The position numbers were made by a program, and so were the translations under genes. A stretch of DNA of 64,000 bases from Streptomyces mobaraensis NBRC 13819 = DSM 40847 (GTDB lineage: Bacteria; Actinomycetota; Actinomycetes; Streptomycetales; Streptomycetaceae). The notes under the pieces were generated by a model that was not told where the DNA came from, did no database searches, and saw nothing but the letters and a program-made list of their open reading frames with translations. This document shows, one piece after another, positions 31,478 to 37,875 of the stretch. The stretch lies in the NCBI RefSeq assembly GCF_017916255.1, contig NZ_CP072827.1, positions 5,791,501 through 5,855,500 on the forward strand, given 5' to 3'. Positions within the stretch are counted from its first letter, which is position 1; every line of letters begins with the position of its first letter.

Positions 31478-31492
31478 ATGAACGATGTTCAT
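31478..31492. promoter_or_regulatory. Palindrome ATGAACGATGTTCAT between lpdA and lysR
   Basis: A perfect 6-3-6 palindrome 10 bases before the GTG start of the LysR gene, in the 82-bp divergent gap. It could be an autoregulatory LysR site. It also contains an in-frame ATG (31478), so an alternative start must be kept in mind. Confidence 0.45.
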
Positions 31493-31501
31493 GGGGGAGT
31501 C

Positions 31502-32476
31502 GTGAGTCTGCGGCAGATGGAATATCTGGTGGCGGTGGTCGAGGAGCGGTCCTTCACCCGTGCCGCCGAGACGCTCAACGTCACCCAGTCCGCCCTGTCC
31601 CACCAGATCAAGGCGCTCGAACGGGAGGTGGGCGGCGCCCTGCTGGAGCGGCTGCCGCGCGGGGTCGGGCTGACGCCCATGGGACGGGCCTTCCTGCCGC
31701 ACGCCGAACTCGCCGTCCGCAGCGCGGGGCTGGCCCGGCGGGCGGCCAAGGCGGCGGCCGGGGCCGAGGGCGGCGAGCTGCACATCGCGACGCTGCACGC
31801 GCTGGCGATCGGCGCGCTGCCGCCGGTCCTCGCCCGCTGGCGGCGCGTGTTCCCCGACGTCCGGCTGCACCTGCGCGAGTACCTGACCACGGACGAGCTG
31901 CGCGACCACGTGGACCGGGGCGTCGCCGACATCGCGATCGGCCCCCGGCCCGAGCGATGGGCGGGGCCGGTGGTCTCCCTGGGGACCGAGGAGATCATGA
32001 TCGTCGTCTCCCGGGACGATCCCCTGGCGGGGCGTACGCGCCCGGTCCACCTCGCCGAACTCGCGGACCGGGCCTGGGTGCGCTGCGTCCTGGAACCGGT
32101 GATCGGCGGCCGGCGGTGGCTCGACCGCGAGTGCGAGCGGTACGGGTTCCGCCCGGTGACCGCCATGGAGGTGCAGCACGCGTCCACGGCGGTCCGGCTG
32201 GCCGTGGCGGGCGTCGGCATCCTCGCCTGCTCGGTGGAGGTGGCGCGGGCGACGGCGGGGGCGGTCGCCGTTCCGGTGGAACCGGCGTGGCGGCAGGAGC
32301 TCACGGCGTACGCGCGCGTCGAACTCACGGGCGCCGCGCTGCGGTTCGTCGAGGCGTGCCGCGAGGACCGGCGGGCGACGGGCGCGCCGGCGCCGCACGT
32401 CGGCGGACCGGCCGCTGCCCATCCGGCGCCGCGCGTCAGCGGACCGGCCGTCGCCCTCGCGGCGCCGGCACGGTGA
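31502..32476 (+). CDS. LysR family transcriptional regulator
   Basis: 324 residues from GTG 31502 (GGGGGAG just upstream). I prefer it to ATG 31478 because it gives the canonical N-terminus VSLRQMEYLVAVVEERSFTR. The helix-turn-helix is FTRAAETLNVTQSALSHQIKAL (about 18-39); the LysR substrate domain spans 90-290. The last 30 residues come from an imperfect 37-bp direct duplication (PAPHVGGPAAAHPAPRVSGP). Its 3' end overlaps the 3' end of the convergent lasso B2 gene by 41 bp. Targets may be lpdA or the lasso genes; unproven. Confidence 0.87.
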   Translation: MSLRQMEYLVAVVEERSFTRAAETLNVTQSALSHQIKALEREVGGALLERLPRGVGLTPMGRAFLPHAELAVRSAGLARRAAKAAAGAEGGELHIATLHALAIGALPPVLARWRRVFPDVRLHLREYLTTDELRDHVDRGVADIAIGPRPERWAGPVVSLGTEEIMIVVSRDDPLAGRTRPVHLAELADRAWVRCVLEPVIGGRRWLDRECERYGFRPVTAMEVQHASTAVRLAVAGVGILACSVEVARATAGAVAVPVEPAWRQELTAYARVELTGAALRFVEACREDRRATGAPAPHVGGPAAAHPAPRVSGPAVALAAPAR

Positions 32477-32876
32477 ACAGGACGCGGAAGTACGACGCGT
32501 CGGCCCGCTCCTCGACCATCCGGCCCTCCGCCTCCACCCAGGCGTGCGCGCCGAACGGCGGGCGGGCCCGGACGCCCACCGCCCAGGCGGGCCACTGACC
32601 CCGCGCCCGGCACAGCAGCACCGTCGCCAGGGAGCGCGGGAGGCAGCCCTCATCCGAGGCGCAGCGCAGGCTGACCGCCTCGACGGCCGCCCGCGCGGCG
32701 CGCGCCTCGGCGTAGGTGGCCGGGCGGGCGCCGCGCGCGAGGCGGGTGAGGAGGGCCCGGATCCTGGCCGGGGGCCGGCGGGCCAGGCGGCCGGCGAGCG
32801 CGACGGCGGCCAGGGCGAGCAGCCGCCGGCCGGGGGAGAGCCGTACCGGGGCCCGCCGGGGGACGACCGCGCTCAT
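32436..32876 (-). CDS. Lasso peptide biosynthesis B2 protein (leader peptidase)
   Basis: 146 residues, ATG 32876, overlapping the B1 stop by 4 bp. It matches the McjB C-terminal transglutaminase-like protease: Cys78 in SLRCASDEGCLPRSLATVLL, His111 in FGAHAWVEAEG, and an ARPPFGAHAWVE block typical of B2 proteins. In lasso pathways B2 removes the leader peptide with the help of B1. An Arg-rich N-terminal third is also typical. Last gene of the cluster; its 3' end overlaps the convergent lysR. Confidence 0.9.
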   Translation of the reverse strand: MSAVVPRRAPVRLSPGRRLLALAAVALAGRLARRPPARIRALLTRLARGARPATYAEARAARAAVEAVSLRCASDEGCLPRSLATVLLCRARGQWPAWAVGVRARPPFGAHAWVEAEGRMVEERADASYFRVLFTVPAPRGRRPVR

Positions 32877-33130
32877 CCGCGGACCACCTTCGCTGCGCGC
32901 ATGCCGGTCAGCAGCCGTTCCACGTCGGCGCGGGCCCGCTCCGCGTCCACCGCGTAGCCCTCGGTCAGGGCGTCCGCCGCCTGGTCGACCGTTCCGCCCG
33001 CCAGGAGGGTGCGGAGCGCCAGCGACGCGGTGGCGTTGAGCTGCCAGTAGCGTCCGGTTGCTTCGTCGAGCAGCACCGTGCCGTACTCGGTGTCGGTGGT
33101 CGAGGCGTCGGGACGCAGGTGCAGGGCCAT
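32873..33130 (-). CDS. Lasso peptide biosynthesis B1 protein (PqqD-like RRE)
   Basis: 85 residues. The sequence LDEATGRYWQLNATASLALR, LLAGGTVDQAADALTEGYAV, RARADVERLLTGM has the PqqD/RiPP recognition element fold: strand, strand, then three helices. RRE proteins bind the leader, here probably through its YxxP motif, and deliver the precursor to protease B2 and cyclase C. 48 bp downstream of the cyclase and translationally coupled to B2. Confidence 0.9.
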   Translation of the reverse strand: MALHLRPDASTTDTEYGTVLLDEATGRYWQLNATASLALRTLLAGGTVDQAADALTEGYAVDAERARADVERLLTGMRAAKVVRG

Positions 33131-33178
33131 CGTTCGTTCTCTCCGTGACGGTGTCGGACGCGGACAGGGCGGGGCGGG

Positions 33179-34993
33179 TCAGCCGGCGGACCGCACCCAC
33201 AGCTCGCAGGCGAGCGCGGTGGCGAAGGCCCCCTCGTGCGAGCGGGGCGCGTACGGGCGCTCGCAGAGCGCGCGGAGCGGTCCGGGGTCGGCCAGGCCCA
33301 GGGCGGCGAGCCGGGAGGAGTCCCACAGCGCGGCGAGTTCCCGGCGGTGCGCGGCGAAGCCCTCGGCGGCGATCGTCGTGCCGTCCGACTTCGTCCGCCG
33401 CTCCAGCACTTCGGAGGGTGTGATCCCGCGCATCGCGGCCTTGGCCAGCGGCTTGAACTCCCATGGGGTGACGCGGTCCTGGGGCCTGGTGGCGAGGCAC
33501 GCCTCGACCACCCGGTCGTCCAGGAACGGCGAGGCCGACAGGATGTCGTCGGTGCTCGTGAGCTGGTGGAAGCCACGGACCTGCCGCCCGGCGTCCTGGA
33601 TCCCCAGCAGGTCGGCGTGGGCGCCGCGGGCCGGCGCGAGCGGTACGGCCGTCCGGACGGTCTCCCGCAGGGCCACGGTCACCAGGTGCCGCGCCTCGGG
33701 GGTGGCCCACGGGGGCAGCCGCAGTTCGCCGCCCCAGTCGAAGGCCCGGTCGCGGGCGCGGCGGGCGCGACCCCGGACCAGGGCGGCGGCCTCCGCGGTG
33801 AGCCAGCGGCGGTAGGAGTCGCCGTCCAGCAGCGTCCGGGCCGCGTCGGCCAGGGGGAATCCGGCGAGCCGCCGGTAGGCGTACAGGGACCGGGCGGCGG
33901 TCAGCGGACGGCTGCGCAGCAGGTCGTGGTAGCGGGCCGGGTGACCGGACAGGCTCTGGTCCCCGCCGAGTCCGTCGAGGTGCAGCCGGGAGCCGTGTCC
34001 GATGGCGAGGGCGCGCAGGGCCCGCAGCCTGGGGGCGCTCAGCAGGGCGGTGGACGGCTCGTCCGGCGGGCCGGTGAGGTCGGTGAGACCGCTGAAGAAG
34101 GACGGCAGGTCCCGTTGGGGGAAGACGATGTGCTTCACCCCCGGCAGCCGGGCCGCGGCCAGCCGGGCCCAGTACACGTCGTCGTCGGCGCTGTCGTCGT
34201 TCTCCACGGTGAAGGCGGTCAGCGCGACGGGCTCCCGGGCGGCCAGCACGGTCATGGTGGTGGAGTCCATGCCGCCGGAGAGGTCGCTGGTCAGCGTGGA
34301 GGAGTCCCGGGTACGGACGCGGACCGCCTCCTCCAGGGCCCGCCGCAGCGGTGCTGCCGCCTCCGCCAGCGGACGGACCGCCTCCGGGAGGTGCCACCAG
34401 CGGTCGACGCGGTGCCGCCGGCCGTCGGGGGAGAGGGTCAGCCGGGAGCCGGGCGGGACGGCGGCCACGCCCCGCCACGCCGGACGGTCGCTCAGCGGGT
34501 GCGGAAGGGAGCCGAGCAGACGCAGCGCCAGCACGGTCCGGTCGAGGGACGCGCCGGTGAGGGCGGCCAGGACGTCGGCGCGGTCGCCGGCGACGGCCAG
34601 GCCGTCGAGGCTGCCGTGGAAGACGCGGCGCAGGCCGGAGGCGCTGCCCCGGATCTGGGTCCGGCCGCCGACGGAGGCGATGAGGTGGTGGCTGCCGGCC
34701 CAGCGGGAGGCCGGCCCGTCGAGCTGCGCCGGATCGGTGGTGCGGGCGGCGAGGGCCGTCAGCTCGGACCGGCTCGCCGAGCAGTGGCCGACGACGACGA
34801 GCCGCGCCGTGCCCGCCTCGACGGAGACGACGGGTTCGGCGCCCGTCCGGCCGACCACCCAGGGCCGGCCGGACGGGTGCGTCATGATCCGCGTATGGCC
34901 CGGAGGAAGCCGGCCGGCGGCGGCCGCCGCCGTCTCATGGTCCGGCAGGACCACGAAGAACCGCTCTTCTTGACCGGTCACCTCAACCTCCAT
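33179..34993 (-). CDS. Lasso peptide isopeptide bond-forming cyclase (C protein)
   Basis: 604 residues, ATG 34993. An asparagine-synthase-like protein: a degenerate N-terminal glutaminase-like domain (to about 200, without a Cys2 nucleophile), then the ATP-pyrophosphatase loop LTSDLSGGMDSTTMTVLAAR (SGGMDS at 239-244) and the substrate loop HLDGLGGDQSLSG (338-350). C proteins adenylate the ring Asp/Glu side chain and couple it to the core N-terminus, threading the tail. 46 bp downstream of the precursor gene. Length and motifs are standard. Confidence 0.92.
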   Translation of the reverse strand: MEVEVTGQEERFFVVLPDHETAAAAAGRLPPGHTRIMTHPSGRPWVVGRTGAEPVVSVEAGTARLVVVGHCSASRSELTALAARTTDPAQLDGPASRWAGSHHLIASVGGRTQIRGSASGLRRVFHGSLDGLAVAGDRADVLAALTGASLDRTVLALRLLGSLPHPLSDRPAWRGVAAVPPGSRLTLSPDGRRHRVDRWWHLPEAVRPLAEAAAPLRRALEEAVRVRTRDSSTLTSDLSGGMDSTTMTVLAAREPVALTAFTVENDDSADDDVYWARLAAARLPGVKHIVFPQRDLPSFFSGLTDLTGPPDEPSTALLSAPRLRALRALAIGHGSRLHLDGLGGDQSLSGHPARYHDLLRSRPLTAARSLYAYRRLAGFPLADAARTLLDGDSYRRWLTAEAAALVRGRARRARDRAFDWGGELRLPPWATPEARHLVTVALRETVRTAVPLAPARGAHADLLGIQDAGRQVRGFHQLTSTDDILSASPFLDDRVVEACLATRPQDRVTPWEFKPLAKAAMRGITPSEVLERRTKSDGTTIAAEGFAAHRRELAALWDSSRLAALGLADPGPLRALCERPYAPRSHEGAFATALACELWVRSAG

Positions 34994-35039
34994 ATCGGGA
35001 CCGCCGGATCACGACGGATTTACCGGACTTCGAACGGGA

Positions 35040-35189
35040 TCACCAGAACTTCGAGAAGCTGTGCGTGATCGGTTCGGAGCCCTCGAGGCCGATGTATCCG
35101 GTGTCCTCCTGGAAAGAGCCGACCTCGAACATTTGCGGAGCCTCGTACGGTGCGAGCGCACGCGGCTCGGTTGCCTCATCGTTCTTCAT
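35040..35189 (-). CDS. Lasso peptide precursor (citrulassin-like, core with Glu8)
   Basis: 49 residues from ATG 35189 to a TGA at 35040, just upstream of the cyclase. The leader has YEAPQMFEVGSFQEDTG (15-31). It contains the YxxP recognition motif, the Gly-x-Phe spacing and Thr at position -2 before the cleavage site, as in citrulassin leaders ending TG. The predicted core is YIGLEGSEPITHSFSKFW (18 residues). Glu8 is at the normal ring position, giving an 8-residue macrolactam Tyr1-Glu8 and a 10-residue tail with bulky Phe/Lys/Phe/Trp as candidate plugs. The pattern xxGLxGx(D/E) parallels citrulassin A (LLGLAGND...). Codons and motifs are read directly; ring and cleavage are inferred. Confidence 0.9.
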   Translation of the reverse strand: MKNDEATEPRALAPYEAPQMFEVGSFQEDTGYIGLEGSEPITHSFSKFW

Positions 35190-35335
35190 CGCACATTCAC
35201 CTTCTTCCTTGTGAATACGGTGGACAAGGTGGTTTCCCGGCAGGGAACGGCGCGAGTCCGCTGCTCATGGGCATGATCGAGCAGTGCGTCCGCGGTCCCT
35301 CCGGAAAACCGGGTGTTCTTCCGGGAAGACGATCA

Positions 35336-35365
35336 ACCGTAACCACGGTGGATCACCGCGGGCAA
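35336..35365 (-). promoter_or_regulatory. Candidate promoter of the lasso cluster
   Basis: On the minus strand TTGCCC (35365-35360) and TACGGT (35341-35336) are separated by 18 bp, a fair match to a housekeeping promoter. This predicts a roughly 140-base leader before the precursor start. The palindrome CGGTG-gat-CACCG (35346-35358) lies in the spacer and could be an operator. The rest of the 310-bp gap between the precursor and treY holds no gene I can see, and no second precursor. Confidence 0.4.
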
Positions 35366-35499
35366 CCCCGAACCGGCCCGGAACACGGGGGAGTTGCGGA
35401 ATGGCGCCCACTGTTTCCCGAGATCCGACATTTGTCATTCCGATGAAGTGAACTCCGGGAAAATGCCGCGAAATTCAGGCATTACGTCGCCGGAACGCC

Positions 35500-37875
35500 T
35501 CATTCCCGGGCCAGCAGCGCCACCGGGTACCGGTGCAACAACCGGCCCAGCAGCACCCGTTCGTCGCACGCCCGGCCCGTCAGCAGCTCCCGCCACCCAC
35601 CGCCTCCGCCGCCGTCTCCCGGCAGCGTCAGCGCCGTGTCGCCCCAGCCGCCCGCCGCCTCCAGCCCCCGTGCCAGCCGCGTCGCCACCGTCACCACCTC
35701 GCCCGAGCGGGCGAAGGCGACGCAGTGGTCGGCGGCGGGCCCCTCGGCGGTCAGCGGGGCGTACGTGGCGTCCGGGCCGAACCAGGCGGGGTGGGCGCGG
35801 CGCAGGCGCAGCGCGGTACGGGTGAGGTGGAGCTTCTCCGCCCCCAAGCCGGCGGGCTCCCCGGCCGCGAAGTCCGGCGGGCGGCGGTTGTCGGGGTCGA
35901 CGAGGGTGCGGGAGACGCGTTCGGTGCCCATGTAGACGTCGGGGACGCCGGGCATGGTGAGGTGGAGCAGTGCCGCGCCGAGCGTGTTGGCCCGGATCGA
36001 CGCGGCGGCGGTCGCCGCGAAGGCGGTGAGCTCCTCGTGGGCCGGGCCGCACGGCCCGGCGACGACGAAGCGCTCGACCGCCTCCTCGTACGCCGCGTCG
36101 GGCTCGGTCCACGTCGTCCGCAGCGCCGCCTCGCGGACGCCCTTGAGGACGGCGGGGACGAGCCGCAGGGCGTCCGGTTCGCCCAGGCCGAAGGCGGTCT
36201 GCCAGGCCGTCCAGGCCACGTGCGGCTCGGGCGCGGGCGTCCGTTCCGCCAGCCGGGCGAGCAGCCGCGCCCACGCGTCCGGGTACTCGGTGAGCACCGC
36301 TATCCGCGCCCGGACGTCGGCGCCGCGCTTGGTGTCGTGGGTGGACAGGACCGTGCCGGTGGTGGGCCGGTCGCGCTGCGAACGGGCGCAGAAGGCGTGG
36401 AACTCGGCGGGCGCGACGGCCGGCCGGCCGGGGGAGCCGCCGACCTCGGTGGCGGACAGCAGGGGCGCGTAGCGGTAGAAGGCGGTGTCCTCCACGGACT
36501 TGGCGTGCAGGGCGGCGGCGGTCTGGGCGAACCGGGCGCAGAAGTCCCGATGGTCCGGCCCGTCGCCGAGCCGTCCCAGGGCCGCGTCCCGCACCACGTC
36601 CACCGCGTCCGCCTCCGCCGGCACGGCGAACGCCGTCCGCGCCTCCCGCGCCGCCTCCTCCAGCAGGGCGGCGTCGGCGGGGGCCACGGGTGCGCCGGGC
36701 CGGGCGTAGGGGCGGTAGACGGGCAGCCGGACGAGGATCTCGCAGAGGGCCGTGCGCAGCGCCCAGGGGGCGTGGTCGCGCAGCGGCAGCGCGCCGTCGC
36801 AGATCCGGCCGGCGACGCGGACGAGGCGTTCGACCTCCGTCACCAGCTCGTGGGAGACCATCCGCCAGGCGGCCCGGCGGGCCGTGGCCGGCCAGTCGCC
36901 GCCGCGGTCGGGCGGCGGCGCGGCGAACGTCCGGTAGGCGGCGGTGAGCCGCTCGGCGCCGGCCGGGTCGGTGAACAGGCCGTCGACGCGGTGGAGGGCG
37001 TCGTAGCCGGTGGTGCCGGCCACCGGCCAGTCGGCGGGGAGCGTCTCGTCGCGGGCGAGGATCTTCTCGACGACCGTCCAGCGGCCCCCGGTGGCCTCGT
37101 GCAGCCGCCGCAGGTAGCCGGCCGGGTCGGCGAGCCCGTCCGGATGGTCGATCCGCAGTCCGTCGGCCACCTCTTCGCGGAGCAGCTGGAGCACCTTGGC
37201 GTGGGTGGCGTCGAAGACCTCGGGGTCCTCGACGCGGACGGCGATCAGCTCGGAGACGGTGAAGAAGCGGCGGTGGTTGAGCTCGGTGCGGGCCAGCCGC
37301 CACCAGGCCGGCCGGTACCACTGGGCGTCCAGCAGCTCGGGCAGCGGCAGCTTCTCGGTGCCGGGGCGCAGGGGGAGGACGTGGTCGTAGTAGCGCAGGG
37401 TGCCGTCGTGGACGGTGAAGCGGTCGAGTTCGTCGCCGAGCCGGCCGGCCAGCAGGGGAAGCAGCACCCGGCCGCCGTGCTCGGCCCAGTCGATGTCGAA
37501 CCAGCGGGCGTAGCGGGAGACCGGCCCGTCCCGCAGCACCTCCCACAGCGGCCCGTTGAGGTGCTCGGGCGCGGGGACGGCCATGTGGTTGGGCACGATG
37601 TCGAGGATCAGGCCGAGCCCGTGGGCGCGGGCGGCGCGGGACAGCGCGCGCAGCCCGTCCTCGCCGCCGAGTTCGGCCCGGACCGCCGTGTGGTCCGTCA
37701 CGTCGTACCCGTGCGAGGAGCCGGGGACGGCCTCCAGGACGGGGGAGAGGTGCAGGTGGGAGACGCCGAGGGCGGCGAGGGCGGGCACGGCCCGCTCGGC
37801 CGCGGCGAACGGGAAGGAGGGCTGGAGCTGGAGGCGGTAGGTCGCCGTCGGAGGCGCCGGGCTGTCGCGCTTCAT
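35500..37875 (-). CDS. treY: Malto-oligosyltrehalose synthase
   Basis: 791 residues, ATG 37875. GH13 features specific to TreY: ATYRLQLQPSFPFAAAERAV at the start, DIVPNHMAVP, GLRIDHPDGLADP (catalytic Asp), WTVVEKILARDETL (catalytic Glu) and TGTVLSTHDTKRGADVRARI. It isomerises the reducing-end alpha-1,4 bond of maltodextrins to alpha,alpha-1,1, the step before TreZ. 39 bp downstream of treX, probably co-transcribed. Full length for the family. Confidence 0.94.
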   Translation of the reverse strand: MKRDSPAPPTATYRLQLQPSFPFAAAERAVPALAALGVSHLHLSPVLEAVPGSSHGYDVTDHTAVRAELGGEDGLRALSRAARAHGLGLILDIVPNHMAVPAPEHLNGPLWEVLRDGPVSRYARWFDIDWAEHGGRVLLPLLAGRLGDELDRFTVHDGTLRYYDHVLPLRPGTEKLPLPELLDAQWYRPAWWRLARTELNHRRFFTVSELIAVRVEDPEVFDATHAKVLQLLREEVADGLRIDHPDGLADPAGYLRRLHEATGGRWTVVEKILARDETLPADWPVAGTTGYDALHRVDGLFTDPAGAERLTAAYRTFAAPPPDRGGDWPATARRAAWRMVSHELVTEVERLVRVAGRICDGALPLRDHAPWALRTALCEILVRLPVYRPYARPGAPVAPADAALLEEAAREARTAFAVPAEADAVDVVRDAALGRLGDGPDHRDFCARFAQTAAALHAKSVEDTAFYRYAPLLSATEVGGSPGRPAVAPAEFHAFCARSQRDRPTTGTVLSTHDTKRGADVRARIAVLTEYPDAWARLLARLAERTPAPEPHVAWTAWQTAFGLGEPDALRLVPAVLKGVREAALRTTWTEPDAAYEEAVERFVVAGPCGPAHEELTAFAATAAASIRANTLGAALLHLTMPGVPDVYMGTERVSRTLVDPDNRRPPDFAAGEPAGLGAEKLHLTRTALRLRRAHPAWFGPDATYAPLTAEGPAADHCVAFARSGEVVTVATRLARGLEAAGGWGDTALTLPGDGGGGGGWRELLTGRACDERVLLGRLLHRYPVALLARE

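Follow-up and report, generated by a model that had tools for sequence, protein, structure and literature searches.

Which class of lasso peptide does the short frame at 35040..35189 of the window (the whole 64,000-nucleotide stretch of Streptomyces mobaraensis DNA analysed here) encode? An earlier note had described it as the precursor of a citrulassin-like peptide, a distinct member of that group marked by Tyr1 and Glu8. Comparison of the precursor and its cyclase with related loci points instead to Snou-LP, which has already been produced in the laboratory: the peptide would be a new relative of that lasso peptide and not of the citrulassins.

The precursor gene and its cluster

The 49-residue frame upstream of the cyclase is present at 35040..35189 and lies on the minus strand, which the earlier note had left unstated; it has an ATG start and a TGA stop (35040-35042). 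The plus-strand reading of the same bases was rejected; it gives an unrelated frame. The full translation of the minus strand, MKNDEATEPRALAPYEAPQMFEVGSFQEDTGYIGLEGSEPITHSFSKFW, consists of a leader of 31 residues, MKNDEATEPRALAPYEAPQMFEVGSFQEDTG (35097-35189), and the core YIGLEGSEPITHSFSKFW (35043-35096), and the gene is called lasA here. The lasso leader that had been reported is also seen in the translation: Y15xxP18, G24-S-F26 and, if the core begins with Tyr32, T30 at position -2. The first of these motifs reads YEAPQM, with Met where Leu is usual. Two traits of lasso precursors are found together in lasA, namely a YxxP leader with Thr at -2 and an Asp or Glu at core position 7-9 (here Glu8). 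Against the NCBIfam model NF033521 (lasso_leader_L3) the precursor scores 26.9 bits (cutoff 19), and against PF19397 22.1 bits, slightly under the cutoff of 22.6. A strict leader motif (Y..P.[LMI]...G.F...T. plus a tail of 10-45 residues) matched once in the window and in none of 100 dinucleotide shuffles; a loose motif also matched a single time in the window, and five of the 100 shuffles had one match or more. lasA is confirmed as a genuine precursor gene by its conserved homologues ahead of related cyclases, which are part of a 23-row family alignment. The 310 bases between treY and lasA (35190..35499, read on the minus strand) are presumed to hold the promoter region, and a AAGGAAGAAGG stretch, found by eye and ending 10 bases ahead of the ATG, could be the ribosome site of lasA.

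The cyclase gene lasC (33179..34993, minus strand) starts 46 bases downstream of lasA, at 34993, and encodes an asparagine-synthase-like protein of 604 amino acids with a PF00733 match (1.4e-37). Seven of the nine residues of its DLSGGMDST motif (D, SGG, DST) do not vary across a 32-row alignment. The best NCBI family for lasC, NF033561, scores 263 bits, under its cutoff of 300, and a search of solved structures gave no match at E <= 0.001. The 85-residue product of lasB1 (32873..33130, minus strand) is a PqqD-like RRE, predicted to bind the leader; it scores 109.2 bits with NF033530 (cutoff 70) and matches TfuB1 of structure 6jx3 at 5.9e-14 (we take TfuA and TfuB1 to belong to fusilassin). 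The start of lasB2 (32436..32876, minus strand; 146 amino acids) overlaps the end of lasB1 by 4 bases, and its product resembles transglutaminase-like leader peptidases (NF033537, 111.9 bits; cutoff 33). The Cys of the GCL/ACL block (EGCLPRSLA) and the His of the HAW block (AHAWVE), presumably the catalytic residues, occur in all 12 rows compared, and 11 of the 12 have an Asp at the column of the one near the end of lasB2. The A-C-B1-B2 cluster is complete, with four genes in one direction, and the genes for the RRE (B1), the peptidase (B2) and the cyclase (C) that mark a lasso peptide locus stand beside the precursor. Among the flanking proteins tested with Pfam and NCBI models, none was recognised as a transporter or a tailoring enzyme.

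Relationship to Snou-LP, fusilassin and the citrulassins

Snou-LP of Streptomyces noursei ATCC 11455 derives from the precursor ...GSFQEDTG-YFGLTGYENLFHFYDKLH, has an 18-residue core with Tyr1, and was produced in S. lividans (Mevaere et al. 2018, PMC5974421). As described there, it was the first lasso peptide with a bulky first residue known to its authors, and its lasso topology was demonstrated by MS/MS, with [2]rotaxane ions, by nearly full resistance to carboxypeptidase Y (with a minor Y1-N9 product) and by lasso-like ion mobility. It was inactive on the bacteria tested, and its cluster is described as having no transporter genes (PMC5974421). The precursor that we found in S. noursei A-2-1 (locus L043) is letter-identical to that of Snou-LP of ATCC 11455 in Table 1 of the same paper. 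The window peptide shares with Snou-LP the 18-residue core, Tyr1, Gly3, Leu4, Gly6 and Glu8, the identical leader end GSFQEDTG, the A-C-B1-B2 genes, the absence of a cluster transporter and the cyclase clade (the S. noursei A-2-1 cyclase is 58% identical to lasC). They differ at position 9, which is Asn in Snou-LP and Pro in the window core, at ring residues 2, 5 and 7, and over most of the tail, LFHFYDKLH in Snou-LP but ITHSFSKFW in the window, where the core ends in Trp; because of this unlike tail, locking in the window peptide could differ. Tyr1 and Glu8, put forward earlier as what sets the peptide apart, are no novelty, as Snou-LP already has both.

Used alone as query, the precursor retrieved itself and two homologues, P0005 (94%) and P0006 (65%); cyclase neighbours and a profile were needed to assemble the wider family. 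Searching with the cyclase yielded a set of sequences 55-65% identical to it, whose named members come from Streptomyces and Kitasatospora (best 120 of 460). A first scan of genome contigs with the single cyclase sequence gave no match, and an alignment-based scan gave related stretches, of which the best 80 of 517 were used. Precursors beside cyclases were sought with a leader pattern that demanded T, I or V at -2, so that other leaders would escape it; it matched in 118 of 120 cyclase loci (all but L005 and L109), a count in which some places appear twice, for example L001/L006, L003/L004 and L007/L012. The profile search with the precursor family found 16 proteins. Together, precursors beside related cyclases and the profile search make up a set of 23 rows with 19 distinct cores. 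The leader GSFxE(D/E)TG followed by the core xxGxxxxE is found in 23/23 rows, that of the window included, and the core pattern in 19/19 distinct cores. Looking at the distinct cores position by position, Gly3 and Glu8 are each present in all 19 and Gly6 in 17; position 1 is Tyr in 14, Met in three, Ile in one and Ala in one; position 9 is Pro in 12, Asn in six, Ser in one and Arg in none. Trp is the last residue in 12 of the 19. Close relatives of the precursor are annotated by NCBI: nine of the 16 profile matches are named "keywimysin-related RiPP". All nine carry PF19397, and it may be this leader model that gives them the label.

The Snou-LP family, as we group it here, is rare in the genus. 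The precursor was matched at E <= 0.01 in six of 392 sampled genomes of the genus, and judged by their cores only the genome of the window and G035 hold family members. The cyclase had a match at E <= 1e-60 in 129 of the 392, and among the matches listed only the same two genomes exceed 50% identity (61% in G035). Relatives of lasC are present in 22 of 72,556 plasmid records, all under 60% identity; the closest among the 10 of the 22 that were listed reaches 41%. Between the window precursor and P0005 the leader (31/31) and core residues 8-18 are identical, and the only differences fall at residues 2, 5 and 7. A bolder reading, which we regard as speculative, combines these points: the window would encode an undescribed Tyr1-Glu8 lasso peptide, and in its rare family the leader and Glu8 would be fixed, as is the whole tail (window versus P0005), while ring positions 2, 5 and 7 vary. 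If that were true, it would suggest changing selection on the ring face, for example because this face makes contact with a target or a competitor.

The cyclase tree was built from 42 hand-picked rows (the window, 35 of the 120 loci and six proteins) by a quick method with SH-aLRT supports in place of a bootstrap, with L002 chosen as the root. Rows L012 and L046 carry the same sequence, any stop within a row was entered as X, and L002, L109 and L119 form long branches of uncertain position. In this tree lasC belongs to a 14-row clade (SH-aLRT 99) together with the S. noursei A-2-1 cyclase, and 17 citrulassin-type rows, three of which have untypical cores (L015, L065 and L084), stand apart from it (SH-aLRT 99). 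The Snou-LP-type clade joins four fusilassin-like rows first (96), before the citrulassin-type rows. Fusilassin/fuscanodin-type clusters of Thermobifida (L049 and L050) have the same four-gene plan, a leader ending in Thr-Gly, an aromatic residue 1, Glu at position 8 or 9 and the sister cyclase clade; they differ in their core, in the cyclase (47% identical in L050, from T. cellulosilytica) and in the nine-residue ring of fusilassin (PMC13352647).

Concerning the citrulassins, the 34 predicted cores listed in PMC12971885 all have Asp8 and Arg9, Arg9 is called defining there, and PAD is present in 15 of the 34 strains. Citrulassins (A and N) resemble the window peptide in the eight-residue ring, Gly6, a first residue other than Gly and the Thr-Gly leader end; they differ in Asp8, in Arg9, which is turned to citrulline by a PAD encoded outside the cluster, in a 15-residue core that ends in SKN in 33 of the 34 listed (PMC12971885), and in their separate cyclase clade. 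In our own comparison set, which was chosen by Asp8 and an SKN/SKH tail so that only positions 1 and 9 are informative, Arg9 occurs in 51 of 52. The window core has Pro9, Glu8 and a tail ending in SKFW. The details noted earlier on this side hold: Pro9 stands in the translation where a citrulassin has the citrullinated Arg, the core of 18 residues is three longer than that of citrulassin A, and relatives support Glu8, not Asp, as the predicted ring closer.

A divergent citrulassin, made by citrulassin machinery acting on a changed core, would account for the ring layout xxGxxGx(D/E), the same gene order, the Thr-Gly leader end in both and a cyclase sharing 45% identity with the one that neighbours the citrulassin A core in L098. 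It is nevertheless very unlikely, since the cyclase clades are separate (99 each) with the fusilassin-like clade nearer (96), Arg9 is present in none of the 19 family cores, and the same genome carries a citrulassin-type precursor, LLRTSGNDRLILSKN, about 3.8 Mb off. Arg9, Asp8, the tail and the position of lasC in the tree all led us to reject citrulassin membership. What remains of the likeness to citrulassin A that was noted earlier is the loose layout xxGxxGx(D/E), a weak resemblance that two related but distinct families have in common and that gives no support for membership of the group. A PAD gene does exist elsewhere in the genome (G000:C1:7266348-7267550, L121; PF03068, 215 bits), and it would be explained by the genome's own citrulassin-type locus; with a separate citrulassin-type precursor and a PAD in the same genome, the window cluster is a separate locus. 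The window cluster is very probably a minimal four-gene (A-C-B1-B2) lasso cluster of the Snou-LP family.

Predicted cleavage site, ring and product

The earlier note placed the cut before Tyr32, with Tyr1 as first residue and an eight-residue ring closed on Glu8, and homology to characterised relatives supports this. The TfuA leader chain of 6jx3 aligns without gaps to precursor residues 14-31 (18 residues) and ends in Thr-Gly, with an E value of only 0.8. A second match in the PDB, the MS-271 precursor (E 1.8), carries TK instead of TG at the end of its leader. In the precursors compared in PMC10368454 a YxxPxL motif spans -17 to -12, and Thr at -2 is given as a general rule. Tyr15 at -17 and Thr at -2 fit if Gly31 is -1, although the motif of the window ends in Met. 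Leepeptin (...ETG|L) starts after Gly, with Leu1-Glu8 closure established by NMR (PMC6856326); like the window peptide it has a leader ending in TG (ETG), a first residue other than Gly, an eight-residue ring to Glu8 and 18 residues, and it differs in its core, LYGVRNDEEINWHFDYWT (PMC6856326). Taken jointly, the TfuA alignment, the -17 and -2 positions and the analogy with leepeptin favour a Tyr1-Glu8 ring.

For Snou-LP, a cut after TG and loss of one water give calculated m/z values of 1123.5389 and 749.3617, and 1123.54 and 749.36 are printed (PMC5974421); the agreement places the cut after Thr-Gly and means that no additional modification can be accommodated. In a 2026 review Snou-LP is termed "Tyr-acylated" (PMC13352647), a label which does not fit this mass unless the ring bond is meant. 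The alternative start at Gly31, which would give a 19-residue product with a nine-residue G1-E9 ring and which the earlier note had named as contrary to its proposal, has in its favour that Gly is common as first core residue and that fusilassin natively has a nine-residue ring (PMC13352647); leepeptin's authors also first guessed a Gly start (PMC6856326). We give it very little probability, as it puts Thr at -1 and runs against the Snou-LP mass and the Leu1-Glu8 product of leepeptin, which starts after TG (PMC6856326); the TG end of the TfuA leader chain is a weaker point on the same side.

With the start at Tyr32, the predicted 18-residue product has a calculated monoisotopic mass of 2079.010 ([M+2H]2+ 1040.512). 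By analogy with Snou-LP, leepeptin and fusilassin, B1 would bind the YxxP leader, B2 would cut after Thr30-Gly31, and the cyclase would activate the Glu8 side chain with ATP and couple it, around the threaded tail, to the Tyr1 amino group. The product would be a Y1-E8 lasso with Pro9, whose loop and tail, PITHSFSKFW, would be held by bulky tail side chains.

Three pieces of the window core gave no match in the main texts of the literature searched, and no report of the peptide appeared among the papers listed in literature searches on citrulassin, keywimysin, fusilassin, Snou-LP and Tyr1/Glu8 lasso peptides. For product hunts, the Snou-LP work (SARP-driven expression in Streptomyces and solid SFM medium; PMC5974421) can serve as template, and citrulline should not be expected. 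The 19 distinct Glu8-closing cores, with Tyr, Met, Ile or Ala first, are gathered around one characterised member and are useful for the study of ring tolerance by lasso cyclases; should a product with a target be found, the ring variation becomes a testable structure-activity set.

Genomic setting and other lasso loci

The 3,023 bases that separate lysR from treY are taken up by the lasso cluster. On one side TreY is followed by an isoamylase-like protein and, beyond it, an HTH/MarR-like protein; on the other side are LysR, a lipoamide dehydrogenase, an alpha-amylase with DUF3459, which we infer to be TreZ-like, and then a Mur ligase-like protein. This survey covered part of the frames of the window, and seven of 10 further frames, without a Pfam match, may not be genes. 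Across 31478-37875 the lasso genes stand between lysR and treY inside a trehalose locus, and the 3' ends of lysR (plus strand) and lasB2 (minus strand) overlap by 41 bases (32436-32476).

Among the 41 genomes compared, own included, a LysR match (E <= 1e-60) is present in nine and a TreY match (E <= 1e-100) in 30; both occur together in four genomes besides the own. In G020 and G009, which belong to the genus, lysR and treY are on one contig and convergent as in the window, with 200 and 498 bases between them, measured from match end to match end and not between gene ends; these spacings are too short for the lasso cluster. In G017 and G003 the matches are on different contigs, and say nothing on occupancy of the site. 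No treY was found in any of the nine family loci (L012 and L041-L048) within the flanks compared, which are short for L012 and L042. This distribution suggests that the lasso cluster arrived at the lysR-treY site, or was lost elsewhere.

No transporter was recognised alongside the cluster and no regulator of its own, since lysR adjoins treY in G020 and G009 too, where the lasso genes are absent; this would agree with a silent or decayed cluster that gives no product. We consider this unlikely, given that all four frames are intact with conserved key motifs and that Snou-LP was made without a cluster transporter (PMC5974421). The cluster is complete and is probably functional as a member of the Snou-LP family.

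Two further lasso loci were seen in the same genome. The citrulassin-type precursor LLRTSGNDRLILSKN lies at 2.03 Mb (G000:C1:2032720-2034437; L003, L004), beside a cyclase that runs across two overlapping frames (offset 2), through either a frameshift or a sequencing error; the PAD gene, at 7.27 Mb, is about 5.2 Mb from it, which agrees with the location of PAD outside the cluster in citrulassin producers. A third lasso cyclase (G000:C1:5354260-5356056; L002) adjoins a precursor with the core GWFMSKKSENLTWRIGGS, the leader of which closely resembles that of 9810-LP. Among the other loci, a precursor family with the leader FL(K/R)RGPHEP(K/R)VRLPLG- also has Glu8-Pro9 (L020, L023, L090, L102, L112 and L118), and those of its cyclases that are in the tree (L020, L090 and L102) form a different clade. 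Tandem precursors occur as well, three at L119:7585-7999 and two at L008:1489-1786, some of them leepeptin-like (VFYVRNGEEVLWFFDTWI and VFGIRNGDEITWFFDTWQ).
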